Positions 10,554-34,575 of a stretch of 38,923 nt of DNA are shown piece by piece. The number at the start of each line of letters is the position of its first letter. The first letter of the stretch is position 1. A model generated the notes under the pieces. The model worked only from the letters and a program-made list of their open reading frames with translations. It was not told the DNA's origin and made no database searches. Position numbers and translations under genes: made by a program. The DNA comes from a virus. The stretch is from IMG/VR virus record IMGVR_UViG_3300025298_000117, positions 1 to 38,923 of that record, one strand, 5' to 3'.

Positions 10554-10572
10554 GTCTTCAACCATGGGTGAT

Positions 10573-10601
10573 GATATGGCAACCTTGGTTAAAGAGGTCA
10601 A
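10573..10601 (-). promoter_or_regulatory. Early leftward promoter
   Basis: On the minus strand TTGACC (10601-10596) is followed after 17 bp by CATATC (10578-10573), or after 19 bp by TATCAT (10576-10571). The operator at 10579-10592 occupies the spacer, so bound repressor would exclude RNA polymerase. Transcription would start near 10565. Assigned by eye. Confidence 0.6.
10579..10592. promoter_or_regulatory. Putative repressor operator O1
   Basis: GCAACCTTGGTTAA contains the palindrome AACCTTGGTT. It sits between the -35 and -10 of the early promoter and is the best of three related sites. Confidence 0.65.
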
Positions 10602-10625
10602 CAACAAAAAGTCATGCGCTTTCCT

Positions 10626-10640
10626 GCAACCAAAGTTGTA
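10626..10640. promoter_or_regulatory. Putative repressor operator O2
   Basis: GCAACCAAAGTTGTA, with near-palindromic arms CAAC and GTTG, lies 10 bp before the repressor start. Occupancy would block repressor transcription, which suggests autoregulation. It matches O1 in the GCAACC and GTT parts. Confidence 0.55.
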
Positions 10641-10650
10641 TGTGTCCGCC

Positions 10651-18103: not shown

Positions 18104-18454
18104 TCAGCGGGTGTAGTGGATGGAGAGGGTGACCTGCGCGTTCTGCGCGGGGACATCGGTGCGGCGACCGGCGATGGAGATCGTAAGGGTGCCGTCTGCG
18201 AAGGCGCCGGAAACGCCGATCTTGCCAACGGCAATCCGGGGCTCCCAGCGCTTGAGCGCGAGGGCGGCGGCCGCGCGCATGAGCATGACATTGGCGGCGT
18301 TCGCAGGCCGGTCGATCAGTTCGAAGAGCTGCGAGCCGAACTCGCGGCGCATGGGTCGCCGGTTGAGCGGAGTGGTCAGGATGCGCGCGACCGACTGGCG
18401 AAGGTGCTCAAGCCCGTCGATCGCTTTTCCCGTGGTGGCGTCCATTCCGTTCAT
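18104..18454 (-). CDS. W: Baseplate wedge protein W (gp25-like)
   Basis: 116 aa. The segment GLEHLRQSVARILTTPLNRR then PMRREFGSQLFELIDRPAN is the gp25/gpW core, which starts sheath polymerisation at the baseplate. ATG codons at 18454 and 18445 are both possible; neither has a clear ribosome site. The 18454 ATG lies 57 bp from the centre of a late-activator dyad, suggesting a leaderless or very short-leader message. First gene of the W-FI-FII-E-T-U-D late operon. Confidence 0.9.
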   Translation of the reverse strand: MNGMDATTGKAIDGLEHLRQSVARILTTPLNRRPMRREFGSQLFELIDRPANAANVMLMRAAAALALKRWEPRIAVGKIGVSGAFADGTLTISIAGRRTDVPAQNAQVTLSIHYTR

Positions 18455-18501
18455 GGATGAACCCAAGCCGGAATGGTGGCCTAAAGGCCAGCGGCTAGCC
18501 C

Positions 18502-18520
18502 GGTAATCGAGAGCGTTACC
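18502..18520. promoter_or_regulatory. Late-activator dyad, W operon
   Basis: GGTAATCGAGAGCGTTACC, extended by CC/GG to 7-bp perfect arms with a 9-bp spacer. Centre at 18511, 57 bp from the W ATG. It shares the GGTAR-N9-YTACC design with sites at 24786 and 29891. Other small palindromes (TGGCCTAAAGGCCA, GGCTAGCC) lie between it and W. Confidence 0.7.
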
Positions 18521-18661
18521 GGCATGTCAGAACGGCCTTCCGAGGTTCGAAATTTGCCGGTACGATCTGGCATGGCAAAAAATGCAAATGAGCATCAGGT
18601 CTGCGACACGTGGGGCCGCGTAACGAAACGCGAAACCCAAGCGAGGGAGGGAGCACGCATC

Positions 18662-18979
18662 ATGCTGCGTGTCCACTACCTACACCGGCCGCCATATGGA
18701 CCAGATGAGATAGCGAAAGCCGATAGGGAATGGGACGAAGTTGTCGGCCCGAGCACACCTATTTCCGAGATGTACGATCTACTGAGTGATCAGCAAAAGC
18801 TCGACTATAAGCGAAGCACCGAGAGCCCCGCGGTCCGGATGCATACAGATAGCGGTCGAGATCCATTGAACGAAGGGCCGTGGGATCTTCTCCGTCGCTT
18901 GGAAGCGGGCGAATGGGTGGGGCCCGCTGATGAAAAACAGATACAGCGCAAGGCTGGAGATCGCGCGTTTCTTCCATAG
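18662..18979 (+). CDS. Rightward cargo gene in the late region, unknown function
   Basis: 105 aa from an ATG with a GGGAGGGAG ribosome site 8 bp upstream; the frame is open back to 18524 with ATGs at 18524 and 18572. It is the only rightward gene in the 17.7-kb leftward late region and lies between V and W, close to where P2 carries Z/fun. Codon use is less GC-biased than its neighbours. The protein is polar and charged (EIAKADREWDEVVGPSTPIS) with no domain I know. Possibly expressed in the lysogen. Confidence 0.6.
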   Translation: MLRVHYLHRPPYGPDEIAKADREWDEVVGPSTPISEMYDLLSDQQKLDYKRSTESPAVRMHTDSGRDPLNEGPWDLLRRLEAGEWVGPADEKQIQRKAGDRAFLP

Positions 18980-18998
18980 GCACTTCGGCGTATGATTT

Positions 18999-19553
18999 TC
19001 AGATTGGCACCCCGCTCTGTGCGGTTCCCGCCTGGACAAGTCCGTGCTTGTGGTTCTTCAGGCTGACACTGCCCGCGAGGACATCGTCGGAGGCGGTGAG
19101 CTTGCCCTCGATCGTCACGTCGCCCTTGATCGTCAGTCCTCCGGTCGCCTCGATCAAGGCCGTCGCGCCGCCGGGGAGGATAGCGATCAGGGCATGGGTT
19201 TCGGGATCATAGCCGATGCGGGCGCCGTCCTTGTACTCGGTCACCTCGGCAAGGCCATTGCCCGGCAGCGGGAACTGGTCGCTCTCGATACCCAGCAGCG
19301 CGACCGCTGCGGCGAGTTGGCCGTCCGGGCACAGCAGCATGACCTGCTCCCCGACACTGGGCGGGCTGTAGACCCGCGTATCCCCGGCGCGCGGGGCAAA
19401 CCAGCGGATCGGCGGCGTGGTGGCGCCGCCATCTTCGTCATCCTCGTCTCCGTAGAGGACGGTGCAGCGACGGGCGGCGAGATCGACCGAAGCTATCGTG
19501 CCCAGGCGGATCAGTTCCGACAGGTCTGCCGGGATGTCTTCCTCTTCCTTCAC
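18999..19553 (-). CDS. V: Baseplate assembly protein / tail spike V
   Basis: 184 aa, P2 gpV family. An N-terminal OB-fold (LIRLGTIASVDLAARRCTVL then PPIRWFAPRAGDTRVYSPPS) is followed by a beta-helix stalk (GGLTIKGDVTIEGKLTASDD) and a tip NHKHG whose HxH motif holds the iron atom in gpV. It begins with GTG overlapping the Rz stop as GTGA. Last gene of the J-to-V late operon. Confidence 0.93.
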   Translation of the reverse strand: MKEEEDIPADLSELIRLGTIASVDLAARRCTVLYGDEDDEDGGATTPPIRWFAPRAGDTRVYSPPSVGEQVMLLCPDGQLAAAVALLGIESDQFPLPGNGLAEVTEYKDGARIGYDPETHALIAILPGGATALIEATGGLTIKGDVTIEGKLTASDDVLAGSVSLKNHKHGLVQAGTAQSGVPI

Positions 19554-20125
19554 GGCCCCTGCTCCGCTGGTACCGCAAGCCCCGATGCGATCCATTGCTG
19601 GCCGAGATCGTGGAGCCGGAGCAGGCGATCCGTGTTGACGGTCAGGGTGTCGAAGTCTGCGCGGCTGAGAACGACGGGAGCTTGACCGGGTCCGTCATCG
19701 CCCGAGGGAGCACGATCCGCGCCGGAGGTTCCGGCTCCGCTGCCTGTACCGCCAGCGCCCGTTCCCGCGTGGATGAGCAGGCCCCCAGCATCGGCATAGC
19801 GGCGAGCAGCAGCGCGCCAGCGGTCAACATTTTCGTTCGCATCGTCGGCATCCTTGGCAAGGGCGGCGAAGCGCCGCTCGGTTTCGAGGCGCGCCGCCAC
19901 GGCCTTGGCTTTCGCCTCGGCCGTGGCGGCGCGGTAGTTTTCCTTGGTCTGACGGTGGTTCGCGGCCTCGACTTGCGAGTGCACCTGCCACTGTTCCGCC
20001 CGGTCGCACTGCCACCAGGCGAGGCCGAGTGCGAAGCAAAGGGCGCACTGCCATGGGTATCGGTGGAGAATGTCGAGAAGGATCTCCACCAAGTTCCGGG
20101 ACGCCCGGTAAAGCATCAGGCTCAT
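19550..20125 (-). CDS. Rz: Spanin inner-membrane subunit Rz-like
   Basis: 191 aa. An N-terminal membrane anchor (residues about 22-42, WQCALCFALGLAWWQC) is followed by a long periplasmic helix (QVEAANHRQTKENYRAATAE through FAALAKDADDANENVDRWRA), typical of Rz. It overlaps the lysozyme stop by 1 bp and contains Rz1 in another frame. Its C-terminal region is Gly-rich then helical. Confidence 0.8.
   Translation of the reverse strand: MSLMLYRASRNLVEILLDILHRYPWQCALCFALGLAWWQCDRAEQWQVHSQVEAANHRQTKENYRAATAEAKAKAVAARLETERRFAALAKDADDANENVDRWRAAARRYADAGGLLIHAGTGAGGTGSGAGTSGADRAPSGDDGPGQAPVVLSRADFDTLTVNTDRLLRLHDLGQQWIASGLAVPAEQGP
19642..19842 (-). CDS. Rz1: Spanin outer-membrane lipoprotein Rz1, nested in Rz
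   Basis: 66 aa embedded in Rz in a different frame, as in lambda. MRTKMLTAGALLLAAMPMLG is a lipoprotein signal ending in the lipobox MLGAC; the mature part carries a Pro segment (EPEPPARIVLP). In-frame ATGs at 19851, 19842 and 19830 are possible. It would pair with Rz to fuse the membranes at lysis. Confidence 0.82.
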   Translation of the reverse strand: MRTKMLTAGALLLAAMPMLGACSSTRERALAVQAAEPEPPARIVLPRAMTDPVKLPSFSAAQTSTP

Positions 20126-20589
20126 CACAGCCCCCGCAGGCAGATGGTGCGCTCGGCACGGCGGCGGTTGGTGAGGCCCTGCACCGGCTTCCCACCGGCG
20201 CGGTTCCACATGAGGAACGCGTCGCAGGCGCCACGCCAGTCGCGGGCGCTGAAACGCTTGGCCACGGTCGATCGGGCATAGGCCTGCGGGCCGATGTTGT
20301 AGGCAAGGCTGGTCGCGGCGGCGAGCTGGGCATCGCGGCCTTTCAGTTCCGGATTCCGCTTGAGCACCGGCGCGGCGAAGTCGGCCAGGGCATCGGCCAG
20401 CATGGTTTCGCACTCCGCATCGGAGTAGCGCCGCATCTTCACCCGCGTCTCGCCGTAGCAAACGGTCTGGACGCCGACGATATCGAAGTAGGGATCGTTT
20501 TCCTTGCCCTCCCACGCGCCGACCAGCGGCACCATGATCGCCGCCGCACCGGCGCCAACGAGGGCAACGAGCTTCTTCGTATCGGCCAT
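20125..20589 (-). CDS. SAR-type endolysin (lysozyme, GH24)
   Basis: 154 aa. Hydrophobic Gly/Ala-rich residues 7-25 (LVALVGAGAAAIMVPLVGA) form a signal-anchor-release segment. The catalytic triad Glu27, Asp36, Thr42 lies in WEGKENDPYFDIVGVQTVCY with the same 9 and 6 residue spacing as phage 21 lysozyme. The start at 20589 has an AAGGA site 8 bp upstream; an ATG 9 bp earlier is possible. It would be secreted by the host Sec system and released when the holin collapses the membrane potential. Confidence 0.9.
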   Translation of the reverse strand: MADTKKLVALVGAGAAAIMVPLVGAWEGKENDPYFDIVGVQTVCYGETRVKMRRYSDAECETMLADALADFAAPVLKRNPELKGRDAQLAAATSLAYNIGPQAYARSTVAKRFSARDWRGACDAFLMWNRAGGKPVQGLTNRRRAERTICLRGL

Positions 20590-20590
20590 G

Positions 20591-20821
20591 TCAGGCATCC
20601 TTCTTCGTGGTGAGGCGCAGCGCGATCGCGGTCACCGCCATGACGACGCCGACCAGCGGCTGAGCCCAATGGGGCAGGAGGTTCACAACCTGGGCGAAGC
20701 CCTTGGGGTCGCTGGCGGCCCAGCTGGTGATGGCACCGCCCAGGAGGGCAAAGCGCACGCTGGACCAGCGCCACCAGTCGCGGGCATCCGCGACCAGGCG
20801 CGCCTTCAGGCGGTCGATCAT
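20591..20821 (-). CDS. Holin-like membrane protein 1
   Basis: 76 aa, starting MIDRLKARLVADARDWWRWS. Two hydrophobic stretches (VRFALLGGAITSWAA and LVGVVMAVTAIAL) and a basic end fit a small pinholin-like protein directly before a SAR endolysin. The start overlaps the upstream stop as ATGA. Holin function is inferred from position and topology. Confidence 0.7.
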   Translation of the reverse strand: MIDRLKARLVADARDWWRWSSVRFALLGGAITSWAASDPKGFAQVVNLLPHWAQPLVGVVMAVTAIALRLTTKKDA

Positions 20822-21012
20822 GATTCCGGTTCCTTGCGCTTTACGAGCCGCTGGACGGTCTCGGTTTCGTAGATGCGGATCGTGGTCCACAGGATGGTCA
20901 GGATAGTCGCGACGGCGGGCAGCATGCTGGCTAGGGCCCCCAGCAGAGTGATCACGGAAGTGGCATCGAACAGGTGCTTGAGGCCGTCGGGAAGGTGGTC
21001 GAAGGGGCGCAT
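20818..21012 (-). CDS. Holin-like membrane protein 2
   Basis: 64 aa with one or two membrane segments (TSVITLLGALASMLPAVATI then LTILWTTIRIYE) and a charged end ETVQRLVKRKEPES. Similar small proteins precede lysozymes in many phages. ATG at 21012 overlaps the upstream stop by one base; a GTG one codon earlier would give a GTGA overlap. Paired with the next gene it could be holin and antiholin. Confidence 0.65.
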   Translation of the reverse strand: MRPFDHLPDGLKHLFDATSVITLLGALASMLPAVATILTILWTTIRIYETETVQRLVKRKEPES

Positions 21013-21269
21013 CACTCCTCCGACGGTTCGTCGGCCGGGGCTTCCGGCTCGGGCGGCTGCGCCACGATGACGCCCAGCTCGAACTTGTAGGCGACGCCGC
21101 GCGCGACTTCCTCAACACGCGCCTCGGTTCCCGCCACGTCATAGGCGCCATCGGCGTCCAAGACTGCATTCACGTCGCGCGTGTGGACGATTTCGCCGCT
21201 GGTGAAGGTGACGGAAACGACGCGCTTATCCTTGTCGAATGCGCCGATCTCGGTGGTCAGTTCGGTCAT
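21012..21269 (-). CDS. Hypothetical late protein, 85 aa
   Basis: 85 aa: a small beta-rich domain (KRVVSVTFTSGEIVHTRDVN) with an acidic Pro/Glu tail. The start at 21269 is the first ATG giving the ordered part. It lies between the fibre-assembly gene and the lysis cassette. Function unknown. Confidence 0.7.
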   Translation of the reverse strand: MTELTTEIGAFDKDKRVVSVTFTSGEIVHTRDVNAVLDADGAYDVAGTEARVEEVARGVAYKFELGVIVAQPPEPEAPADEPSEE

Positions 21270-21280
21270 GCAATGGCCTT

Positions 21281-21667
21281 TCAGGCAGGTGCGACCGGCC
21301 ACACGACGGCGGCAAGGTCGGCAGTGGTTTCGGGAAGGTCGCGGAGCGCCTGACGATAGATGCACCAGGCGGCGCGCTGTTCGTCGGTGACCGGGGCGTC
21401 CGAAACTTGGGTCCAGTCGCAGTCGGTCAGCAGCCGGTTGCGATCGGCGCGCATGTTCCCGGCCAGTACGTCATTCGGCGGCAGGGGCTGGTCCGTCGCA
21501 ATCGGCGCTCCATCCGGGCCGGGGACGATACACTTCCCTTCGGATTGCTGCCGCAAAAGCGCCGTGTGGGTTTCGCCATCGATCGGCACGGCATCGGCCG
21601 GGATCTGGGCTGCGCTATGGATACCGTCGTCGAAGAAACCGCCCGCAGTGGCAGAATAGAAGATCAT
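21281..21667 (-). CDS. Tail fibre assembly protein
   Basis: 128 aa. The C-terminal RNRLLTDCDWTQVSDAPVTD then EQRAAWCIYRQALRDLP is a common signature of tail fibre assembly or chaperone proteins encoded directly after fibre genes. It lies 9 bp after the fibre gene and occupies the position of P2 gene G. Confidence 0.85.
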   Translation of the reverse strand: MIFYSATAGGFFDDGIHSAAQIPADAVPIDGETHTALLRQQSEGKCIVPGPDGAPIATDQPLPPNDVLAGNMRADRNRLLTDCDWTQVSDAPVTDEQRAAWCIYRQALRDLPETTADLAAVVWPVAPA

Positions 21668-21676
21668 CGATTTTCC

Positions 21677-23278
21677 TTAATATCCGAGCGCAAACCAGTA
21701 GGCACCGATCGTTCCCGAAGCGGTCGCCGCGATGGCTATTCGGCCCTGACTGTTGCTGATGGCGCCTGCGCCGATGCCGATCCGGTTCTCGGTCAGGGAG
21801 GTGTCAGTTCCCATGCCGCCCCACATGGCAAACACGCCGTTGGGGAAGGTTGTCGGAAATGTGACAGTGTTGTTGGCGCGATTGGTGAATGCGGCGTTCC
21901 AGCCCCATTGCAATATGAAGCCGTTGGACAAGCGTATCCATCCGCCAGGTCCAGACAGCGCCAAGGTGAAATCCGTGTATTTCGCGAGCTGGGAGGCATG
22001 GAAGCCATCGACCATGTCCGCATCAAGTCCGCTTCCGGAACCGTCGCTGAGGGCCGACCAGATGCGCTGGCCCATCTGGGTTAGTTCAACGGTGTTGATC
22101 TCCACGTTTTCCAGCGTGGCGGCGCCTTGGCAGGCGAACTGCAGCTTTTTGAAACCGGCAATGTTGGGGCGGATCACGTAGCCCCAACCATCAGTGGTGC
22201 GGGAGATATAGACGTCCCCCGTCTTCACTTCCAAGTTCGCAGCAGCGAGCAGACCATCCACCGCCGCGTTCCCACGTGACCACAGGGTGGCGGCACCGAT
22301 CCCGCCCGCAAAGATTTCGCTGGCTAGGTCCTTGCGGGCGTAATTGCTGCCATCAACACCGTCGAGCAGGTCCGCATCCAAACCCGAGCCGGACCCGTCC
22401 ACCGTCAATAGCTTCGCCAGCAGGGCGGCAGCGGTCAGCAGTCCATCCACATACTGCTTGGTAGCCGCGCCGAGGGCGGCGGTCGGGTTGGCGGCAAGCG
22501 TGAGCGGCCCGGCCATCGTGCCACCCGCCTTGTCGAGCGGGGTGAAGCCCAGGCGGGCGATGATATCGGTGTAGAAGCTCGGCAGTTGTCCGGCGAGCAG
22601 CCCGGCATCTAGCCCCGAGCCTGCACCGTCATTGTTCGGCCCCCAAGGGATGTAGCCGAGGCGGGCTATAATATCGGCGTACCAGGAGCCGTGCTGGCCA
22701 TCGAGAAGGTCTGCGTCGAGCGCCGAGCCCGCGCCGTCCTGCGCGAGCAGCCAACCGAGAATGGCCGCCTGCGCGGAAGCGGGGGTGAGCGCGCGCAAGG
22801 CGTCTAGGCCCGCCTTGGCCTCTGCAAGGGTGGCCAGCTCAACGACGCCCTGCCGCTCCGTGGTCGCTGGCGGGTTCGTGAAGTTCGTGGCACCGAACGT
22901 GATCTGCGCGGCGTTGATGTCCGCGAAGACTGCGTCGATCGACAGGGCCGCGATGGAAGAGGCCGTCTTTTCCAGAATCGGCGCGGGCTGGCCGTAGAGC
23001 GCGAAGAGGGTGCCGTCCGCAAGATAGAGCGCGAACGATCGCAGCTCGTAGGCGTCGGCGCTGGCATCGGTCGCGTTGACGTGGATGATGTCATCCGCAA
23101 CCACCTCGCCCGGCACACCGGCGATACGCTTGAACTCGCTCGCCAGCGCCGTCATCGCCGGGGTCGGTACGATCGCGCTGTTGGAGAAACCGACGTGCGT
23201 GATGATGACGGCGGCGGTGCCGGTGTTGGCGGCGTTGATGAGAGCGGCTCGGCCCGCATTGGTGACGACGATATCCAT
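21677..23278 (-). CDS. H: Tail fibre protein H
   Basis: 533 aa. The first 130 residues match the P2 gpH-like baseplate-attachment domain (VVTNAGRAALINAANTGTAA onwards, then GTLFALYG). Four copies of DGxGSxLDAxLLDGxxxSxY-like units follow at about 181-200, 217-236, 294-313 and 412-431. The C-terminal GGWIRLSNGFILQWGW and TFPTTFPNGVF resemble the gp53-like receptor-binding tip. It determines host range together with the chaperone next to it. Confidence 0.9.
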   Translation of the reverse strand: MDIVVTNAGRAALINAANTGTAAVIITHVGFSNSAIVPTPAMTALASEFKRIAGVPGEVVADDIIHVNATDASADAYELRSFALYLADGTLFALYGQPAPILEKTASSIAALSIDAVFADINAAQITFGATNFTNPPATTERQGVVELATLAEAKAGLDALRALTPASAQAAILGWLLAQDGAGSALDADLLDGQHGSWYADIIARLGYIPWGPNNDGAGSGLDAGLLAGQLPSFYTDIIARLGFTPLDKAGGTMAGPLTLAANPTAALGAATKQYVDGLLTAAALLAKLLTVDGSGSGLDADLLDGVDGSNYARKDLASEIFAGGIGAATLWSRGNAAVDGLLAAANLEVKTGDVYISRTTDGWGYVIRPNIAGFKKLQFACQGAATLENVEINTVELTQMGQRIWSALSDGSGSGLDADMVDGFHASQLAKYTDFTLALSGPGGWIRLSNGFILQWGWNAAFTNRANNTVTFPTTFPNGVFAMWGGMGTDTSLTENRIGIGAGAISNSQGRIAIAATASGTIGAYWFALGY

Positions 23279-23293
23279 GGGCGGTCCTGCTGA

Positions 23294-23839
23294 TCAGATG
23301 GCGGGGGCGAAGATGCGGGCGGCGACACAGGCGCGGCCCGCCGCGCGCAGACCGATGCGGGCGCGGGCGGACTGGGCAACGGTGAAATCGAAGTGGCTGC
23401 GTACCGGCTTGGTGCGGAAGACTTCCGCAACGACCGCGTCGATGAACTCAGCGGTCGGCGCACCGGCGCTCTGGCCTCCGAGGGTCACGGTTAGGTCGAA
23501 GGTGTGGGGTTCGCGCGGCGGATCGAACTGGAACCACTCGCGCACGATCACGTCGCCGCCGAAGCTGGCCACCACGTCGATGACAGATTGCGCGGTGCCC
23601 TTGATGCGCTGGATCGCAATCGCGGAGGCCACGCGGGCGCGGCGGACGTTGAGGGGCCAGTCTGCCGACCACTGATCGACCGAAAGTGCCCAGGCGAGCC
23701 ATGGCAGCAGGTTCTCAGGGCAATTCTCCGCCGACCACAGATCGCGCAAAGGCGTGGTGATGTCGTTGATTCGCCTATCGAGCAGCAGCTCCAGCGCCCG
23801 TTCCAACTCGGTTGCGTTCGGTGGGAGAAGGCTGTTCAC
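23294..23839 (-). CDS. I: Tail protein I
   Basis: 181 aa, P2 gpI family baseplate protein. Begins with a GTG overlapping the J stop as GTGA. NSLLPPNATELERALELLLD then LPWLAWALSVDQWSADWPLN is diagnostic of the family. Residues 50-120 are the conserved core; the C-terminus is basic and Ala-rich. Confidence 0.92.
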   Translation of the reverse strand: MNSLLPPNATELERALELLLDRRINDITTPLRDLWSAENCPENLLPWLAWALSVDQWSADWPLNVRRARVASAIAIQRIKGTAQSVIDVVASFGGDVIVREWFQFDPPREPHTFDLTVTLGGQSAGAPTAEFIDAVVAEVFRTKPVRSHFDFTVAQSARARIGLRAAGRACVAARIFAPAI

Positions 23840-24738
23840 TCGCCCACTCCCGCGTCGATCAGCTCGATGCCGGTGCAATACTGCGCTTCCTGCCGGGTGA
23901 GGACGATGTCCGCCGCTGGAGACGAGAGCGCGATGTTGTGGACGCCTTCGGGGAACAGCGCCGCAATGATCCCGGCGCGAGTGATGTCGCGGCCCAGACG
24001 GCGCGTGTTTGCCAGATAGCTTTCAAGCTGGGTGCGCGCGGTCTCCAGCACGACCGAGCGGTCGGGACCGGAAAGGAAAGTGAGCGTGGCGCTGATGGCG
24101 AACGGCACGATCGTGGCGCGCTGCACGGTGACGTGGTCGGTAAGTGGTCGAACGCTCTTGCTGGAAAGGCGCGCATCGACGTCGGCCAGAACCTGATCGG
24201 ACACGGCCCCGTTGCCGGTGCGGGACAGAACGGTCACCACGACCTCACCGGGGCTGGGGCTGACGGCCGACGCATCGAGCACGTCGGAGTTCGCCGACAG
24301 GGAGTGGAAAATGTAGGCGCCCTCGGGGCCAGCGACGGAAAATCCTTCCGGTGCCAGGACCATGCGGCGGCGAAGGCTGTCGTCGCTCTCGTAAGTGGCA
24401 GGAATGTCCAGCGCCGGATTGCCAGGATCGAGAATGAAGCGTTCGACGCCAACGATCGCGGCGATATTGTCCAGGTCAGTACCGGTGGCAAATGCGGGCA
24501 TGACGGCGCGGGCCGCTTCGTTCACCCGCTGGCGCATCAGGAGTTCGCGATAGGAAAATAGCTGGATGATCGCGACGACCGGGTCGCTTTCCACCGTTGC
24601 GTCGAAGCTCGGGAAGTACGTCTGGAACTCTGCGATCGACTGGGCAAAAATCTCCTCGAAGCTAAGACCCTCAATGAGCGAGGGCGCAAGCAAGCGGGAG
24701 AGATCAACCCCGGTGAAACTGTCGGATGCAACGGCCAT
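23836..24738 (-). CDS. J: Baseplate assembly protein J
   Basis: 300 aa, P2 gpJ family wedge protein. FDATVESDPVVAIIQLFSYR then ELLMRQRVNEAARAVMPAFA and TGTDLDNIAAIVGVERF are the classic N-terminal signature. It is the first gene of a late operon (J I H ... V); its ATG has no ribosome site and lies 57 bp from the centre of an activator dyad. Confidence 0.94.
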   Translation of the reverse strand: MAVASDSFTGVDLSRLLAPSLIEGLSFEEIFAQSIAEFQTYFPSFDATVESDPVVAIIQLFSYRELLMRQRVNEAARAVMPAFATGTDLDNIAAIVGVERFILDPGNPALDIPATYESDDSLRRRMVLAPEGFSVAGPEGAYIFHSLSANSDVLDASAVSPSPGEVVVTVLSRTGNGAVSDQVLADVDARLSSKSVRPLTDHVTVQRATIVPFAISATLTFLSGPDRSVVLETARTQLESYLANTRRLGRDITRAGIIAALFPEGVHNIALSSPAADIVLTRQEAQYCTGIELIDAGVGE

Positions 24739-24785
24739 GCATCACGGCATGCCGCAGCTTCGTGCGCGCGCGGAGATGGCGGCGG

Positions 24786-24804
24786 GGTAGAGGCGCGCGC
24801 TACC
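24786..24804. promoter_or_regulatory. Late-activator dyad, J operon
   Basis: GGTAGAGGCGCGCGCTACC, extended by CG/CG to 8-bp perfect arms (24783-24807). Centre at 24795, 57 bp from the J ATG. It sits just after the S stop at 24808, so it may also act as a hairpin at the end of the previous operon, but no U-run follows. Confidence 0.65.
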
Positions 24805-24807
24805 CCG

Positions 24808-25287
24808 TCAATCGTCGGGATTGAGCAGGGATGCAGCGATTTCGAGGGCGAGATGCTCGTCTTCCGGCCCGAAGCCGAGAAGCCGGCGCTGCGGATAGCG
24901 GGCGCGGATCTGCCGCCCGCTGCGCAGGTAGCCCACCGTCGCCATCTCACCGAACTGGCTGACCGAGGCCACCCGGTCGACGCTGCCGGTTGCGGGCCGG
25001 ATCTCCACGCCGGAGGCATCGGCGTCGATGCGCCAGTTGCGCAGGCGGCGCAGGCCCTTGAACATCTTGCCGGACTGGCGGCGGCGCAGCCTGCCCCGCC
25101 GATCGAGGCGCGGCTTGCGTGGTTCCATGGCCCGACCGTCGGGCTCGACGTTGTCGGCAATGCGCTTGAGGTTCGACCGGCGGAGCGCCTGCCCCAGCTT
25201 CACGGCGGCGCGGCGGCGCTCGGTCGGCCCGACTGCGGCGAGGATGCGGCCGAACCATTCGTTGAACTGGGTCAGATCGTGGGCCAC
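24808..25287 (-). CDS. S: Tail completion / virion morphogenesis protein S
   Basis: 159 aa, P2 gpS family. A basic middle (RKPRLDRRGRLRRRQSGKMF) followed by VSQFGEMATVGYLRSGRQIR then ARYPQRRLLGF is typical. Follows R after 4 bp and ends the O-to-S late operon. Confidence 0.88.
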   Translation of the reverse strand: MAHDLTQFNEWFGRILAAVGPTERRRAAVKLGQALRRSNLKRIADNVEPDGRAMEPRKPRLDRRGRLRRRQSGKMFKGLRRLRNWRIDADASGVEIRPATGSVDRVASVSQFGEMATVGYLRSGRQIRARYPQRRLLGFGPEDEHLALEIAASLLNPDD

Positions 25288-25291
25288 GACA

Positions 25292-25798
25292 TCAATCGTC
25301 CCACGGCGGCAAGTCTTCCGTCACATCGAAGCCCTTGAGCGGAGGGGCGGCCTCCGGCGCGATGATGCTGAGGATATCGGGGTCCGGCGGATCGCGCTCG
25401 GGCATGTACTGCAGATCGTAGCCGCCCTTGGCGCCGCGCACCGCGCCGACCGCCTGGTCGAGCTGGATCTGCAACAGGATGTCGGCGGTCGCATTGTCGA
25501 GGATGTCCGCGTCGAAGGAGATGCCCTCTTTGCCCGGCACCATCAGATCGGGCTGATTGACGCGCATCCACTCGAAAACGGCCAGGAACAGGACGTGCAT
25601 GTCGCTGGCCATCTCCACGACCAGGACGTTGAGCTGGAACGCGGACGTGATCGCGCGGTCGTCTGTCTGGGTGGACGAGGCCGAACCGCGTTCGATCCAC
25701 ATGCGGACGCGGTCGGGATCCCGTTTCAGTTCGGGCAGCGCGGCAAGGATCGCGGCCTTGAGGGTGTTGATCTTGCTGGTGATGGGGCGGTGGCTCAC
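25292..25798 (-). CDS. R: Tail completion protein R
   Basis: 168 aa, P2 gpR-like. Order (after X, before S) and features such as RVRMWIERGSASSTQTDDRA and LFLAVFEWMRVNQPDLM support it; the C-terminal DILLQIQLDQAVGA fits the family. Its start follows X by 4 bp. It helps finish the tail so that it can join the head. Confidence 0.85.
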   Translation of the reverse strand: MSHRPITSKINTLKAAILAALPELKRDPDRVRMWIERGSASSTQTDDRAITSAFQLNVLVVEMASDMHVLFLAVFEWMRVNQPDLMVPGKEGISFDADILDNATADILLQIQLDQAVGAVRGAKGGYDLQYMPERDPPDPDILSIIAPEAAPPLKGFDVTEDLPPWDD

Positions 25799-25802
25799 CG
25801 GG

Positions 25803-26015
25803 TCAGTCCCATAGCTTTTCGGTTTCGAGGATGGGCGGGCTGGCCTTCGTCAGCTCGGGCAGCGTGATGACAGTACCGGCGGGGATCGTCGGGCCGAGAT
25901 CGGCGAGGCCGGGGTTGAGTTCCAGGACCTGCTCGGTGACCGATTGCGTGCGGCCCAGCTCGCGCCAGCAGATGGCATCCACGGTGTCTCCGGCGAGGGC
26001 GGTCGCGGACGCCAT
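25803..26015 (-). CDS. X: Tail protein X (LysM-like)
   Basis: 70 aa, P2 gpX family with a LysM-like fold: AGDTVDAICWRELGRTQSVT then EQVLELNPGLADLGPTIPAG and TVITLPEL. Thought to act in tail-tip or peptidoglycan contact. Lies 2 bp after the small gene upstream. Confidence 0.92.
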   Translation of the reverse strand: MASATALAGDTVDAICWRELGRTQSVTEQVLELNPGLADLGPTIPAGTVITLPELTKASPPILETEKLWD

Positions 26016-26017
26016 CT

Positions 26018-26254
26018 TCAGGCGCCTTTCTGTGGCGGTGGAGGGCCACGCTCGGCCGCCCGCAGCGCCTCCAGCAACCTGCTTTCGATCTTGTCCGCGC
26101 TGCCTAGCCAGTTCTCATGCTCGAACCGTTTGCCGCACCGCAGGGCAACGACGAAGAACCGCTTTCCGCGAATTTCCTCACGGCCAAACCACGAGACCTC
26201 ATCGAGCCGAAAGCAGGCAGAGTTGAAGTCGAAGAAGGATCTGGGACAGCTCAT
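26018..26254 (-). CDS. Hypothetical late protein, 78 aa
   Basis: 78 aa: MSCPRSFFDFNSACFRLDEV then SWFGREEIRGKRFFVVALRC, a small domain rich in Phe and Cys. Its ATG overlaps the L stop by 1 bp. Not found in this place in P2. Function unknown. Confidence 0.7.
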   Translation of the reverse strand: MSCPRSFFDFNSACFRLDEVSWFGREEIRGKRFFVVALRCGKRFEHENWLGSADKIESRLLEALRAAERGPPPPQKGA

Positions 26255-26748
26255 CAGATCAGCTCCACCCGGTTGCGGGCCACGGGCTTGTCAGCGCCAA
26301 TACTGCGAAGGTCCGCGACGGCGGCCAGCGCGATGCGCCGCGAATCATCGGCCGTCACTGTCTTCTCCGCCGCGCGATCGAGGCCGTCATCGGTCGCGGA
26401 GATATCGCGATACTGGCCCTGCAGCTCGGCGGCCGCGAAGTACATGACCACGCGCTCCCACAGCTTCACCGCAAGGTTCTGCTGGTTGATCTGCTGGTCG
26501 GTCACCTGCGCGAGTGAGGTGACACCGGCACTGGCGCGGGCGCTGCGCCAGACGGCAAGCTCGCGGAAGCCATGCAGCATGCCGCTTTCGATGGCCGCGA
26601 TCAGACGCGCAGTGGGAACGGTGCCATCGCCGAGGCGCACGACATCCCGGATGAGGACCAGCTTGACCGGCGGGAACCAGCCATCGGCAACGACCTCGGC
26701 TTCCTCGGGGTCGGCTTCGGGGCCGGGAAACGGGATAAGGCCGGTCAT
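26254..26748 (-). CDS. L: Head completion protein L
   Basis: 164 aa, P2 gpL family. VLIRDVVRLGDGTVPTARLI then AAIESGMLHGFRELAVWR and KLWERVVMYFAAAELQGQYR are typical; the protein plugs the filled head for tail joining. Preceded by a 106-bp spacer holding a long hairpin. Confidence 0.92.
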   Translation of the reverse strand: MTGLIPFPGPEADPEEAEVVADGWFPPVKLVLIRDVVRLGDGTVPTARLIAAIESGMLHGFRELAVWRSARASAGVTSLAQVTDQQINQQNLAVKLWERVVMYFAAAELQGQYRDISATDDGLDRAAEKTVTADDSRRIALAAVADLRSIGADKPVARNRVELI

Positions 26749-26769
26749 GCTGGGTCCTTCGAGACTATG

Positions 26770-26837
26770 TCGGGGGGTGGGGATGGCGTGACCGGCAAGG
26801 CCGCAAGCGGTTCCCGGTCAGTCCATCCGCCCCCCGA
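26770..26837. other. Long interrupted hairpin between M and L
   Basis: Nested arms: TCGGGGGG/CCCCCCGA (26770-26777 and 26830-26837), GGATGG/CCATCC (26781-26786 and 26823-26828), TGACCGG/CCGGTCA (26789-26795 and 26814-26820) and an inner CCGC/GCGG. Together they make about 25 base pairs with small bulges. There is no U-run. Likely an RNA structure affecting M-L message stability or attenuation. Confidence 0.6.
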
Positions 26838-26854
26838 GCGCCGTGGGGCGTTCC

Positions 26855-27619
26855 TTACTGCTGCGCGTCGGCGGCGGCCGTCAGCGCGGCGAGCTGGCGT
26901 TCCAGCTCCTGAATGTCCTTTTTCACGCCGACGTTGCCGTCGAGTTCGAGGGCGCGTTTCATCTGGGCCAAGGCGGCATCGACGAACGCGGCCTTGCCAC
27001 CGGCGGGGGCGTTGTCTGCCGCCGGATCGAAGTCCTTGGCGCGCTGGCGGTAGCCGCGGCCGATTGCCTTGTGCAGCTTCGCTTTGGCCTGATCGGGCAT
27101 GTCGGCGCCTTCGACCAGTGCCAGGATCTGCACGAGCTGTTCCAGCGTCACGAGTTCCTTTTGGGTGAGCGAGATCGTGGCGATCTCCTCGGCAAGGAAG
27201 CAAGCCGGGGTGCGGTTGTAGCGCGAGGGCAGGACGAGGTTGAACTTGAGGACATGCGCGCCGAGGCGGATCGCATAGTCGAAATCGCGATAGTCGATCG
27301 CCCAGACCATGTTCGTGGTCAGAATCTCGTCCTGGACGGCCTGGCCCTTTTCGCCAGCCATCAGCACGCCTTCGATCCAGTGCGTGAATTCCTTGGCGAA
27401 TTCGGCCTTCATCGGGTTGCGCGCCTCGATCGAGGCGACATCGGCAAGGGTGCGCAGGTTGTCGTCCAGCAGGACGCGCAGCGCGGCGTATTCCTGCCCG
27501 GCCGGGGTGGTGGCCTGAAGTTCGGGTGCGGCGGTTACGACGCGGTGGCTGACGTGATTGGGACCCGCGCTCTTGAGGCCGTGAACCATCTGCTTGTGAC
27601 GTCGGAAGGGGCTGACCAT
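26855..27619 (-). CDS. M: Terminase small subunit / endonuclease M
   Basis: 254 aa, P2 gpM family. Begins MVSPFRRHKQMVHGLKSAGP; LRVLLDDNLRTLADVASIEA then RNPMKAEFAKEFTHWIEGVL and TTNMVWAIDYRDFDYAIRLG are strongly conserved. It cuts cos together with P. The C-terminal 60 residues are helical and Ala-rich. Confidence 0.93.
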   Translation of the reverse strand: MVSPFRRHKQMVHGLKSAGPNHVSHRVVTAAPELQATTPAGQEYAALRVLLDDNLRTLADVASIEARNPMKAEFAKEFTHWIEGVLMAGEKGQAVQDEILTTNMVWAIDYRDFDYAIRLGAHVLKFNLVLPSRYNRTPACFLAEEIATISLTQKELVTLEQLVQILALVEGADMPDQAKAKLHKAIGRGYRQRAKDFDPAADNAPAGGKAAFVDAALAQMKRALELDGNVGVKKDIQELERQLAALTAAADAQQ

Positions 27620-27666
27620 GCGGGGCTCTCCTGTGATGGGTAGAATGGCCGCTCTATTCGGCGGCG

Positions 27667-27713
27667 GCCGACCGGCGGAGGGACGAGAGGTGCGCGCCTC
27701 CCGGCTCCCCGGC
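27667..27713. other. Foldback between major capsid gene and M
   Basis: GCCG..CCGG.GGAGG (27667-27681) can pair with CCTCCCGG...CGGC (27697-27714) around a GC-rich loop. It lies in the 159-bp spacer after the major capsid gene. No U-run is seen; possible attenuator or mRNA stabiliser. Confidence 0.35.
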
Positions 27714-27778
27714 CTATGCTCTGGGCTCCAGCGGTGCCGACCCGAATGTCAGCCACCCGCCATCGCTGCCCCTCGGTA

Positions 27779-28891
27779 TTACGGGCGGGCGCCGAAGGTG
27801 ATGTTTTCGGCCATGACCGCGAAGTCGGTGTTCTCGATCACGTAGCCTTCATTGACCGAGTTGTAGTCGACCAGGCTCGCCTTGTTCTCCGGCTCGTCCT
27901 TGATGTAGCGGCGGCGCGATTCCTCCTGGAAGTAGATCGACAGGTTCGAGCTGTCGGTGGCGTCGCGCTGGCCCAGCGGCGTGATCAGCATCGTGCCCTC
28001 GGGGAACTTCGGCACGATGGCCGCCGGGCGGCCGCCGATCTGCTTGGTCGACATGATGATGTCGCTGGTGACTGCATCGCTGGTCGAGCGGCCGCCGTCG
28101 ATGGTGTCCGACAGGGCGCGGTTGATCATCGGGAAGTACTTCTCGTCGACGAGGTCCTGGCTGACGCAGACGACGTGGTCGGTCGAGTTCTTCGCCCAGC
28201 TCGGCATGCCCGCGATCAGGTCGTAGGCCAGCGCGTCGATGTTCTTGTAATCGCCCTGGGCAAGATCAGAGTTCGGGCCGATGTAGATCGGCTTCGCCGC
28301 GCCGGTTGCGGTGCCGTTGCCCGCGATGACGCGGCCCATGACGTGATCGGGGCGTTCGAGGCGGAGCTTCTGCAGCCAACCGATGTTCACGTCTTCACCG
28401 TTGGGGTTGGCGACAGGGTCCGTGGTCGCGGCAGCGGTCAGACCGTTCCAGCCCACGGCGATGCGGCTGAGCGCGACGGAAATGGCGACGTGGCGCGAGT
28501 ATCGCTGGGCAAAGTCGGGGAACTTCGACCAGGCGTCGATGATCTGCCACGGCAGCTTGGTGTTGAACTCGGTGTCTTCGAGCAGGTACTTCCGGTCATC
28601 CATCTTGCCGACGTAGCGGGCCTTGCGCGGCAGATCGGCGTCGGCGGTGCGCGAGGCGATCATGTCCTCAGTACCCAGGCCGATGATCTGGCCGATCATG
28701 TCCCGAACGCCGATCACGTTGATGCGCTGCAGGAAGCCGACCTGCTCGCGCTGGAGATCTTCGAGACGCTGCTCGCTGGTGGGATCGAGCGCGAACTGCC
28801 GGCTGACGCCATCGGCGTTGTTCGCCTGGGCAATGGCATTGAACAGGCCGTCGAGCGCCCGGCGCCCGCGATCGGAAAGGTTGTAACCCAT
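27779..28891 (-). CDS. N: Major capsid protein N
   Basis: 370 aa, P2 gpN family. MGYNLSDRGRRALDGLFNAI sets the start at 28891. FLQRINVIGVRDMIGQIIGL, QRYSRHVAISVALSRIAVG and IGWNGL-like segments (GWNGLTAAATTDP) are family hallmarks. Cleaved by the O protease during head maturation in P2. Followed by a 159-bp spacer with a foldback, which may set its higher expression relative to M. Confidence 0.95.
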   Translation of the reverse strand: MGYNLSDRGRRALDGLFNAIAQANNADGVSRQFALDPTSEQRLEDLQREQVGFLQRINVIGVRDMIGQIIGLGTEDMIASRTADADLPRKARYVGKMDDRKYLLEDTEFNTKLPWQIIDAWSKFPDFAQRYSRHVAISVALSRIAVGWNGLTAAATTDPVANPNGEDVNIGWLQKLRLERPDHVMGRVIAGNGTATGAAKPIYIGPNSDLAQGDYKNIDALAYDLIAGMPSWAKNSTDHVVCVSQDLVDEKYFPMINRALSDTIDGGRSTSDAVTSDIIMSTKQIGGRPAAIVPKFPEGTMLITPLGQRDATDSSNLSIYFQEESRRRYIKDEPENKASLVDYNSVNEGYVIENTDFAVMAENITFGARP

Positions 28892-28944
28892 GGTGTGTGT
28901 CCTGTGTGGAAAAGAGCGGGGCGGGCGGTGAAAGGTGGGCGGGT

Positions 28945-29790
28945 TTAAAAGATGCCTGCGTAATTTCCGGCGTTCCCCTTGCCCTGCGGGCGGGAGCGGA
29001 AGTTGCGTTCGGGCGTGTGCTCCTGCTCCTTTTCCAGATTGGCGAACTTGACGCCGAGGGCGTCGATCTCGGTGCGAAACTCGCCCTGAAGATCGCGGAG
29101 GCCATCGGTCAGGGATTTGCCGAATTCCTCGAACAGCGGCTTGAGCTGGTTGAAGTCGAGGCCGGTGGCGGCAGGCGGCGTTTCCGCCGGGGGCGTGGTC
29201 ACGACCGGCTTTTCCTCGGACTTGAGGCCGAATTTGTTGGCGAACACGTCGAGCATGGTGCTGAATTTGGAGGCGAGATTGTCGTCGGCGCCGGTGGGCT
29301 TCTCGTCGTCGAACTCGACGGCGGCGGCAGTGTCGCGGGAATAGACATCCGTGCCCGGCAGGCGGCGATTGAACTGCAGGCGGTCGGTGGCGATAGACGC
29401 GGGACTGTCGGTCAGCGCGCAGCCCATCAGGTACGCGAAGCCCTTCCCCGCGAAGTTGGGCTCGATCTCGATCGACGGATAGACCTTCTGGCCAGCATCG
29501 TTGAGGGCCTTTGCGTCCTCGTTGATGTCGAACACGCCGTAGAGGCCGGTGCGCTTTTCCTTCTTGCCGTTGAAATCGACCTCCACTTCGGCAGTCGAGA
29601 GTTCCAGCACATCGCCGAATGCGCGGAACGGTGCCTGCCCGGTCGCGCCGCGAATGTGCTCGATGTTGAGGCGGGCGCCGTACGTTTTCGGATCGTAGCT
29701 CTTGGCCATTTCCTCGAGCCACTTGGGATCGATGTTGCGGCCATCCACGGTCGGGCCGGAGGTGGCGAGGAGGAAGGACTTGGTCTTCAT
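28945..29790 (-). CDS. O: Capsid scaffold-protease O
   Basis: 281 aa, P2 gpO family. The serine protease set is visible: Asp16 (TVDGRNI), His45 (NIEHIRGATG) and Ser106 (VYPSIEIE), spaced as in P2. The C-terminal 100 residues are the helical scaffold part. Start 29790 has a GCGGAG site. First gene of the O-to-S late operon; a dyad lies 110 bp upstream, between O and P. Confidence 0.94.
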   Translation of the reverse strand: MKTKSFLLATSGPTVDGRNIDPKWLEEMAKSYDPKTYGARLNIEHIRGATGQAPFRAFGDVLELSTAEVEVDFNGKKEKRTGLYGVFDINEDAKALNDAGQKVYPSIEIEPNFAGKGFAYLMGCALTDSPASIATDRLQFNRRLPGTDVYSRDTAAAVEFDDEKPTGADDNLASKFSTMLDVFANKFGLKSEEKPVVTTPPAETPPAATGLDFNQLKPLFEEFGKSLTDGLRDLQGEFRTEIDALGVKFANLEKEQEHTPERNFRSRPQGKGNAGNYAGIF

Positions 29791-29890
29791 GTTCGGGCTC
29801 CGCTTGCAGTCCAGAGAGGGCGGTTGCGGCGCCCGGCGTTCGATGAGGACTTGAAGCCCGACGGCAGGCCATCCCGCAACGCGCGGGCGC

Positions 29891-29909
29891 GGTAACGCTG
29901 GCGTTTACC
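29891..29909. promoter_or_regulatory. Late-activator dyad between P and O
   Basis: GGTAACGCTGGCGTTTACC, centre 29900. Compared with the W site read in reverse (GGTAACGCTCTCGATTACC), 15 of 19 bases agree. It lies between divergent P and O: 56 bp from a P ATG (29956) and 110 bp from the O ATG. Confidence 0.7.
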
Positions 29910-29955
29910 CGCGCAGGCCCGCGCCAGAGGGGGCATGGCGGTGCATGGCATGCTC

Positions 29956-31863
29956 ATGCCCACGCCAAGTCCCTCCAAGAGCGCGAAGAATGCCGCCACG
30001 GTCAGCCGTCAGGTCGGCCGCGCGCTTCGCCGCGAGGCGCGTTCGCTGTTCTGGCGGGGATGGCAGCTCGCGCAGATCTCGGACGAGCTGGGCGTGAACT
30101 ACAACACGCTGGCGAGCTGGCACCGGCGCGACGGGTGGGAGGTCTCGGCCGCCGTCGACGTGATCGACGACAGGATCGAGGTGAAGGTCGCCAACCTGAT
30201 CGACAAGGAGCCGCTGACCGAAGGCGACATGAAGCGCATCGACTTCCTGACGCGGCAGCTTGAGCGGACGGCGCGGATCCGGAAGTACAACGAGACCGGC
30301 AAGGAAGGCGATCTCAACCCGAAGATCGGCAACCGCAACAACGCCGAGGCCAAGGCCAAGCGCGCGGAGAAGCGCAAGAATTTCCTGACGCTAGAGCAGT
30401 GGCAGGCGCTGCTGGACGACTTCCACGACCGGAACTTCGAATACCAGGAGGCCTGGTGGGATCAGCGCCACCAGCGCACCCGCAAGATCCGAAAGAGCCG
30501 TCAGGTCGGCGCGACCTGGTACTTCGCGCGGGAGGCGCTGGCAAAGGTCGCCGAGGCGGTTCTGGATGCCGAGCAGCCGCGCAACCAGATCTTCCTGTCC
30601 GCGTCCGAGCGCCAGTCGCTCAAGTTCCGCCGCGAGATCGTGGGATGGGTGCGCCGCGTCACCGGCGTGGAACTCAAAGGCAAGATCATCGAACTCGACT
30701 TCCACGGGCAGTACCCGGAAGACGAGGAAAGTGACGCCAAGCCCGTTCGGCTCGACACCGTCGGCTTCTACTTCCTCTCGACGAACAGTGCGACGGCACA
30801 GGGCGAGAGCGGCGACTTCTACTTCGACGAGTACGCGTGGGTCCACGGCTTCGGGGACCTCAACCGCGTGGCCAGCGGCATGGCCACGCACAACATCTAC
30901 ACGAAGACCTATTTCTCGACGCCGTCGACCAAGACGCACGAGAGCTATGCCTTCTGGGCTGGCGAGGATTGGAACAAGGGCCGCGCGAAGGGCGATCAGC
31001 AGCCGTTCGACATCAGCCTGAAGAACCTTCGCCGTGGCGCCATCATGCCGGACGGCAGTTGGCAGCAGATCCTGACGATCCACGATGCGCTCGCCATGGG
31101 CTTGGCGTCGCGCATTAACCTCGACGAGCTGCGCCAGGAATACTCGGACGAAGCGTTCCGCAATCTCTACGAGTGCGAGGACGTCGACGATTCCGAGAGT
31201 AGCTTCCCGTTCGCGCGTATCGCCCCGGCCCGCGTGGACAGCTTCATGCGCTGGCGAGACTTCAAGCCCGCGCTGATCGACATACCCGGCGGCCGCCCTT
31301 TCGGCGACCGGCCCGTATGGATCGGCTACGACCCGAACAAGCAGGGCCGCGACGATGCCGCGCTGATCGTCGTCGCACCGCCCGACCAAGCGGGGGTCGG
31401 CAAATTCCGGGTTTTGGAAAAGCACCGGCTCAATGGCCTGGACTTCGCTGGGCAGGCCGAGTTCATCAAGAAGGTGGCCGGGCGTTACCGCGTCACCGAC
31501 ATCGCGATCGACACGACGGGCCACGGTCTGGCGGTGTGGGAGCTGGTGCACAACTGGTTCCCCAACGCGCGCAAGATCGAATACTCGGTCGCCAGCAAAA
31601 CCGCCCTGGTCGTGAAAGGCCAGAACGTGTTTCGCAACCAGCGCATCGAGTTCGACGCGGGATGGACGGACCTGATGCAGGCGCTGATGGCAATCCGCCC
31701 GGCGCTGACCGGCAGCAAGAAGGGCGTCACCTACATCGCCAAGCGCAACGGCGAAATCGGCCATGCCGACGTCGCCTGGGCGCTGCTCAATGCACTTTCG
31801 AACGAACCGCTTGATGCCGGGACCGCCAGCCAGGGCATCGGCGGCCGCGTCGTTTTCTACTGA
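29956..31863 (+). CDS. P: Terminase large (ATPase) subunit P
   Basis: 635 aa from ATG 29956. ATGs at 29935 and 29950 and a GTG at 29941 with an AGAGGGGG site are alternatives; 29956 was chosen for its fixed distance from the dyad. An N-terminal HTH (WRGWQLAQISDELGVNYNTL) is followed by the ATPase with Walker A-like SRQVGATW (181-188) and the acidic FYFDEYAW. A C-terminal RNase H-like nuclease begins WIGYDPNKQGRDDAALIVV. P2 gpP family DNA-packaging motor. Confidence 0.94.
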   Translation: MPTPSPSKSAKNAATVSRQVGRALRREARSLFWRGWQLAQISDELGVNYNTLASWHRRDGWEVSAAVDVIDDRIEVKVANLIDKEPLTEGDMKRIDFLTRQLERTARIRKYNETGKEGDLNPKIGNRNNAEAKAKRAEKRKNFLTLEQWQALLDDFHDRNFEYQEAWWDQRHQRTRKIRKSRQVGATWYFAREALAKVAEAVLDAEQPRNQIFLSASERQSLKFRREIVGWVRRVTGVELKGKIIELDFHGQYPEDEESDAKPVRLDTVGFYFLSTNSATAQGESGDFYFDEYAWVHGFGDLNRVASGMATHNIYTKTYFSTPSTKTHESYAFWAGEDWNKGRAKGDQQPFDISLKNLRRGAIMPDGSWQQILTIHDALAMGLASRINLDELRQEYSDEAFRNLYECEDVDDSESSFPFARIAPARVDSFMRWRDFKPALIDIPGGRPFGDRPVWIGYDPNKQGRDDAALIVVAPPDQAGVGKFRVLEKHRLNGLDFAGQAEFIKKVAGRYRVTDIAIDTTGHGLAVWELVHNWFPNARKIEYSVASKTALVVKGQNVFRNQRIEFDAGWTDLMQALMAIRPALTGSKKGVTYIAKRNGEIGHADVAWALLNALSNEPLDAGTASQGIGGRVVFY

Positions 31864-33004: not shown

Positions 33005-34486
33005 TTATTTTGGAGTGCCAAATCGACCTACGGCGCGAATTAAATCAGGATATCGGCTTATGTCACCTAAAGGCGGTGGGTTAGATCGCCAATCTCGCTC
33101 ATTCGCCACAGTTTCGACGCCGAAGGAGGGGGAGTTTTCATTGTATAGGGCAGCAAGACGGTCTTGGGTTATAGACGCAGCCTCAAGGAAATCGGCTGCA
33201 ACTCTTTCGATGGTGTAGCTTTCCCACCCCGAGTTTTCACTTCGATGGATATAACGCGTGTACGCAAACGGCACCGTGTTCCTTGGAACTGGGAGCACTC
33301 CCGCCGGAAGGCTGCGTAACTGGCCGATTGCTAGGGGAAGCAATAAAGGCGCATGAAGACGTCTTTGTCCGGCCACAGCCAGCGAAGTTTGCAATATGTC
33401 AATCAGCGGGAACGTGTCGCGAGCTGCCAGTCCATACAGCTGCATGTAAATCGCGATAACGTCATATAGATCACTCGCCGATTCGCCGCCTGACGTGCTG
33501 GTAAGATTAGGATATCTGAGGTCGCCTGGGCCGATCCCGGCATCTTCGCAAAGATGTTTTATTAATTTATAGTGGTTGGGCACGGCGAGATCATATTGCC
33601 TGTTAATGAACCGCCTAAGATAAGACTTGCCATCAAAGCTGTGCCCGTAAGCTCCCACAACTGAATGAGCAAGCTGCTCTGTGTGAATTCCTAATACGAA
33701 AACAAGCCCTGGCACATCAAACAGGTGCTTTATTTCTTCCAAAAGCTTGATCGCGTAAGTTGGTCGGCATCGATCAAGCTCATCAATTACGATGATGATA
33801 GGTGGGTGCTTCTCTTGTCGATCCAATGCATCCACAATCGAGGATAGGCTGTCCTTCATTGCCTGGACTGCTGCTCGGCCATGTTCAAACTCAGCGATGC
33901 GGGCTTGCATCAAGTCATGCGGCGAGACGCTGCTGATCGCGGCGGCAGTATCGTCAGTCAGGCCCTGACCAACATCCTTCAGGCTATCATTTATCGAGCT
34001 TTTTACAGCCTCACTGGAGCCTGCAAGCACGCCCCCGATGTCGTCTACAGCGCCAGCAGTGAGTAGCGTTGCCACCCCTCTTCGCACGAGGCCCAAGCCC
34101 GCGATCTTTGCTACTTGACCAGATTTGCTCATAAAAGTCGCGACGCGGCTTTTAATCTCGGGCTCCGCCATAAACGGCTTGAGAGCCTCGTTCAAAGTGG
34201 CAGCCAGGGCGGTGAGTGGCTGGTCAGCGAGGTCATCTGCCCAAGCGTCAACGAAAGCTACGGGGTGATTTACGCCCATGTGTTCGGCGAACCTTTTTAG
34301 GAAAAAGGACTTCCCCTCACCGTACCCGGCATCGATCGCGATAGTATATGCGCGCTTATCTTCCCGAAGCGGCCGACGGGCGGTGACGCTCTCGATATAG
34401 GCCTGAAGCAGTACAGCTTCCTCACGGCGATCGAACAGGTCGCCTTGCCAGATTTCGTCTAAAGATCGCTGTTCGCACGAAGTCAT
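33005..34486 (-). CDS. KAP-family P-loop NTPase, probable defence cargo
   Basis: 493 aa. Walker A AGYGEGKS (53-60), Walker B IIIVIDELDRCRP (230-242), with a moderately hydrophobic insert between them (about 123-158) as KAP NTPases have. DALDRQEKHPPI and HLFDVPGLVFVLGIHTEQL also fit. KAP NTPases are large STAND-like ATPases often found on mobile elements and in anti-phage loci. It is convergent with Q and sits where P2 carries old/tin, both exclusion genes. The DNA is more AT-rich than the phage genes, suggesting separate acquisition. Confidence 0.82.
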   Translation of the reverse strand: MTSCEQRSLDEIWQGDLFDRREEAVLLQAYIESVTARRPLREDKRAYTIAIDAGYGEGKSFFLKRFAEHMGVNHPVAFVDAWADDLADQPLTALAATLNEALKPFMAEPEIKSRVATFMSKSGQVAKIAGLGLVRRGVATLLTAGAVDDIGGVLAGSSEAVKSSINDSLKDVGQGLTDDTAAAISSVSPHDLMQARIAEFEHGRAAVQAMKDSLSSIVDALDRQEKHPPIIIVIDELDRCRPTYAIKLLEEIKHLFDVPGLVFVLGIHTEQLAHSVVGAYGHSFDGKSYLRRFINRQYDLAVPNHYKLIKHLCEDAGIGPGDLRYPNLTSTSGGESASDLYDVIAIYMQLYGLAARDTFPLIDILQTSLAVAGQRRLHAPLLLPLAIGQLRSLPAGVLPVPRNTVPFAYTRYIHRSENSGWESYTIERVAADFLEAASITQDRLAALYNENSPSFGVETVANERDWRSNPPPLGDISRYPDLIRAVGRFGTPK

Positions 34487-34575
34487 CAGTAACCTCTTCC
34501 GAGAAATTCGGCATTCCAAAAACCACGGAAGGCCTCACGGTAAGACTTTGGAATGCCTCCGAGCTTTGGGATCGG

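Follow-up and report, generated by a model that had tools for sequence, protein, structure and literature searches.

The DNA analysed here (hereafter the window: 38,923 nt, the entire IMG/VR virus record IMGVR_UViG_3300025298_000117) is a P2-like prophage of a Novosphingobium-type bacterium, in which the dyad GGTAR-N9-YTACC stands upstream of late genes. One copy (18502-18520, minus strand, GGTAACGCTCTCGATTACC in the reading direction of W) precedes W, encoding a gp25-like baseplate wedge protein (18104-18454, minus strand), a second (24786-24804, minus strand) precedes J, for another baseplate wedge protein (23836-24738, minus strand), and the third (29891-29909) is common to the promoters of the divergent genes P, for the terminase large subunit (29956-31863, plus strand), and O, for the scaffold/protease (28945-29790, minus strand). 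An Ogr-like protein of 124 aa is encoded at 9398-9772 on the minus strand and belongs to the Ogr/Delta family (PF04606, 1.5e-11; 44.5 bits against a curated cut-off of 26.3). The gene names W, J, P, O and Ogr, assigned in the original prediction from the nucleotide sequence, are upheld (GPW_gp25 for W, PF04606 for Ogr). On the strand opposite to W, and only 4 bp from its dyad, there is an open reading frame of 151 aa (18524-18979, plus strand) for which a Pfam search gave no match. Furthermore, the end of the prophage beyond the portal gene carries genes for a KAP-family P-loop NTPase (33005-34519, minus strand) and a DUF6236 protein (36942-38219, minus strand), which are possibly defence cargo.

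That GGTAR-N9-YTACC occurs at three places only had been claimed by eye, and a scan of the whole window found precisely those three, while 100 dinucleotide shuffles gave a mean of 0.02 matches and at most 1. The looser GGTA-N11-TACC, many further copies of which in coding DNA would have spoken against a regulatory role, has no extra exact match and seven sites with one mismatch. Measured from the dyad centre, the ATG lies at +57 for W, +57 for J and +56 for P, as first proposed, and at +110 for O, on the opposite flank of the P/O dyad; P has other in-frame ATGs at +35 and +50.

The same arrangement was followed in relatives, comprising 178 loci from four viral-contig scans and 16 from one genome scan (the latter nearly all from Novosphingobium and other Sphingomonadales); a nucleotide search for relatives among sequenced phages gave one trivial match only. 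N9 was the sole enriched spacing, with 21 dyads versus 0-1 at other spacings in the terminase set, 28 versus 0-6 in the Ogr set and 44 versus 0-7 in the W set, and the 87 distinct dyad contexts were mostly ahead of W, J, P/O, E, U or lysis genes, a few being in coding DNA. Conservation upstream of J, W and P, on which the original prediction had staked itself, is strong: among non-redundant promoters, the ATG falls at +56 to +58 from the dyad centre in 24/24 for W and 15/15 for J, and at +56 to +60 in 11/11 for P. Some relatives (L041:1987-2150, L054:2930-3094 and similar loci) also have an extra dyad before E, followed by a strongly conserved leader of ~100 nt (ATCGCAGATCCATCGCCGGTCCTGTTGCGGGGCGCCGG), perhaps a structured leader RNA; neither this dyad nor the leader is found in the window.

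What kind of promoter would such a dyad serve? Agreement with TTGACA and TATAAT was scored by offset over 71 non-redundant promoters and compared with 100 shuffles. The former was highest at centre +21 (2.97 of 6; shuffles up to 1.69) and the latter at centre +44 (1.72; shuffles up to 1.58, i.e., a weak -10), and the spacer between these -35-like and -10-like elements is 17 bp, so that +1 is to be expected at +56/57, on the start codon. The sequences conserved in the relatives, CT/TTG at +20 to +23 and GGC[AT]T at +42 to +46, fit a -35 and a -10, respectively. The original prediction had instead pointed to a CGG followed 13 or 14 bases later by the ATG; this pattern is present in the window, but as a conserved promoter element it gives way to GGC[AT]T and CT/TTG. 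Accordingly placed in the window are, for W, a -35-like hexamer at 18485-18490 (minus strand, centre +21 to +26) and a weak -10-like hexamer at 18462-18467 (minus strand, centre +44 to +49), and for J, the -35-like position 24769-24774 and the weak -10-like position 24746-24751 (both minus strand), with CT at +20/+21 in 15/15 J promoters. For P, the -35-like hexamer is at 29921-29926 and the -10-like position at 29944-29949 (both plus strand), and at the -35 offset the 11 P promoters agree with TTGACA at a mean of 4.0 of 6 positions, while a GGGTGCATGGC block is conserved at +41 to +51; the -35-like hexamer of O is TTGCGG (29874-29879, minus strand), with a mean of 4.1 of 6 matches in 10 O promoters. 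At the O, E and lysis promoters, where the gene start is elsewhere, A or CAT is still frequent at +55 to +57, and a leader follows. In three relatives (L161:893-975, L163:6248-6330, L168:3969-4050), an inverted repeat, GCGCGCGATGGCC...GGCCATCGCGCGC, comes after the lysis-gene dyad and extends across the putative transcription start.

This geometry is that of P2. In the P2 record, the distance from the centre of the activator site to the annotated start is 56 bp for P, 55 for O, 55.5 for V and 57-59 for F, P and O are served by one site, and the V transcript begins at the first base of V codon 1, with leaders of ~23-26 nt at P and F. Like P2 (pP, pO, pV, pF), the prophage has three activator sites for four late promoters, a zinc-finger activator and similar spacing from site to start codon, with a joint site for divergent P and O; the dyads ahead of W, J and P/O would lie at the P2-type distance of about 55 bp if +1 is where it is predicted. 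Unlike in P2, the operons are split before J and W, the start codon falls on the putative +1 at W, J and P (in P2, at V), and Ogr has an extra N-terminus and a tail (P2 Ogr has 72 aa). The half-sites also differ, GGT(A) with N13 here versus TGT-N12-ACA in P2, a consensus from which other P2-like phages depart too. As a site finder, strict TGT-N12-ACA misses the late sites of P2 itself, and for this reason the annotated P2 sites were used.

The start codons were taken from alignment (ATG in W 30/30, J 4/4 and P 6/6). A core Shine-Dalgarno (SD) motif precedes 8/54 dyad-linked starts versus 150/204 other genes, and 13/13 O genes; in a wider set, it precedes J in 3/37 and P in 3/27 versus N in 26/26, FI in 27/27 and Q in 16/19. 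The core-motif count was preferred because SD hybridisation energy discriminates weakly (medians -5.5 versus -6.1). Dyad-linked starts thus have the hallmark of leaderless mRNAs, an AUG without an upstream SD, yet the absence of the SD is by itself no proof, since I (0/28) and V (2/21) are also poor in it. Taken with the promoter geometry and the mapped V promoter of P2, it makes the messages of W, J and P probably leaderless, as originally suggested, with starts at 18454, 24738 and 29956, respectively, and that of O leadered. A literature search on leaderless transcripts in Novosphingobium found nothing relevant. The nearest competing explanation accepts the dyads as Ogr sites and gives W, J and P short leaders, the start codons merely lying near compact promoters. 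The leaders of P and F in P2 and the several in-frame ATGs upstream at P speak for it, but in 39 W and J promoters the ATG stays within 3 bp of one position, the SD is missing, and the -35 and -10 offsets put +1 on the ATG, which together leave short leaders rather unlikely.

How the dyad relates to other Ogr sites can be judged from its dialects. Two reports describe TGTTGT-N13-ACAACA in phiRSY1/phiRSA1 (PMC5694545) and TGT-N12-ACA in Smp131, with PP', PO', PJ' and PV' (PMC3931495). The same site type stands before the same operons, phiRSY1/phiRSA1 share the N13 register, J of Smp131 likewise has its own promoter, and the outer base is T where here it is G; the phiRSY1 site is placed at -50 to -90 from the codon, and no leaderless reading is proposed in the portions of these reports that were consulted. 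The P geometry in the P/O regions of Smp131, KS14, KS5, Dobby and Mae-JY29 is mixed, their annotated starts being uncertain. Alphaproteobacterial P2-like prophages with TGTAGAG-N5-CTCTACA or other dialects also have dyads of 19-21 bp whose centres lie 56-60 bp ahead of the ATG of J and of P, with other arms and another Ogr sequence; none was found at W in the records examined. The dyad of the window would be a new dialect, GGT-N13-ACC, of the P2-type Ogr site. The original prediction of Ogr-type sites is supported, but it overstated their unlikeness to those of P2, given that the TGT-N13-ACA register is kept and one (outer) base is changed per half-site.

Of another 40 records that carry an Ogr gene (Ogr proteins were recovered from 29/40), most have a dyad of their own, common to the J and P promoters. 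With the ATG position left free within 20 codons, the dialects include TTGTAGAG/CTCTACAA, TTGGACAG/CTATCCAA, GTGTCGGG/CCCGACAC, CGGGCGAGAG/CTCTCGCCCG, TGTGGGAA, TGTGAAA, GGTA and others. With ATGs picked without regard to dyads, the 56-60 bp bin holds the strong dyads of 29/66 J and P promoters of these phages, other bins having 0-7 and mostly 0-2. Dyad and Ogr variants vary together, as anticipated: dyad distance correlates with Ogr distance (0.56) and not with J distance (0.12; n=24), and the partial correlation with Ogr is 0.55 (permutation p 0.0002, n=24), shared ancestry not being fully removed. GGT-type Ogr proteins form one clade and do not overlap with TGT-type ones at K38, R47, R50, T63, H79 and R88, among others, positions that are candidates only, on account of that shared ancestry. 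Upstream of W in L153, a hybrid dyad combines the half-sites GGTA and TACA, and the Ogr of this phage is GGT-type. Another record, PP438421.1, labelled as a Microcystis phage, is a P2-like genome with an Ogr similar to the sphingomonad type (QPDMF tail). Its dyads read CCGTT-N11-AACGG, and one stands 57 bp ahead of a gene; the phage may in fact infect a bacterium accompanying Microcystis.

Could the dyads instead be operators of another regulator, such as a host factor, a prophage repressor or a YdaS-like protein? A YdaS-type HTH protein is indeed encoded at 10224-10670, but the P2-type placement ahead of late operons, the joint O/P site and the covariation with Ogr make this very improbable. 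Chance repeats, terminators or RNA hairpins are scarcely credible, in spite of inverted repeats being found in DNA of 64% GC, since chance is refuted by the shuffle expectation, the enrichment of N9 only and the 56-60 bp clustering, no T-run follows the dyads, their two arms vary symmetrically from phage to phage while the distance stays the same, and those of W, J and P lie upstream of the predicted transcripts.

Hence, the virion genes are very probably switched on at the three dyads by the Ogr-like activator, as judged from sequence comparison. The Ogr-like product would bind them and, with its centre ~56 bp upstream of +1, recruit host RNA polymerase to promoters in which 17 bp separate a -35-like hexamer from a poor -10, the P/O site driving both divergent operons as in P2. 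A start at centre +56/57 would leave the W, J and P transcripts beginning at the AUG or within one or two bases of it, and that of O, from near 29844, with an SD-containing leader of ~54 nt. We consider this joint reading (Ogr sites at a fixed promoter length, with leaderless W, J and P and leadered O) quite likely in view of the sites, their spacing and conservation, the promoter-element enrichment, the SD contrast and the dyad-Ogr covariation. Against it stand the 56-60 spread of the P ATG with its in-frame alternatives, the lack of an SD in some other genes too, the weak -10 match and the shared ancestry that the covariation test leaves in part.

The activator itself has the CX2CX22CX4C zinc motif described for Ogr/Delta proteins (PMC3931495), with C36, C39, C62 and C67 invariant in 18 relatives; in a structure model the zinc-ribbon core is confident and the tail uncertain, and a search for solved structures resembling it found nothing convincing. 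The tail ends in QLSMFGAA, and Q-x-[ST]-M-F, preceded by a variable, acidic stretch, is found no more than a few residues from the C-terminus in 37/38 distinct relatives with intact ends (chance ~0.2% per protein, the clade members not being independent). More distant tails have QITMF, QPGLF and QESLF, and Mae-JY29 has QPDMF; other alphaproteobacterial Ogr proteins have a PAND-rich/repeat tail instead, and P2 Ogr has neither. The motif resembles the β-clamp-binding consensus QL[S/D]LF or QxxLF, its fourth position being M as in QADMF of E. coli Pol III α (PMC12309361), and host polymerases have QHGLF, QGGLF and QLPLF. It is conceivable, if doubtful, that the tail grips the host β sliding clamp, so that replicating prophage DNA would be the preferred template of the leaderless late operons; a literature search on Ogr and the clamp found nothing relevant. 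Such a replication-coupled late switch would be T4-like in principle, late transcription in T4 being driven by the sliding clamp gp45 (PMC7892883, PMC2988020), and only if the tail does bind the clamp. T4, however, relies on a phage-encoded clamp together with gp55/gp33 and lacks a site-specific zinc-finger activator, whereas here a site-specific zinc-ribbon protein would be the link.

In these phages, nature supplies matched pairs of Ogr and dyad, and the recognition code of this zinc-finger family could be deduced from them. The clamp-like tail also makes it directly testable how late transcription of the P2 type is tied to DNA replication. Finally, a large group of P2-like phages from alphaproteobacteria is predicted to translate its virion operons from leaderless mRNAs, so that J, W and P would share the feature recorded for V in P2.
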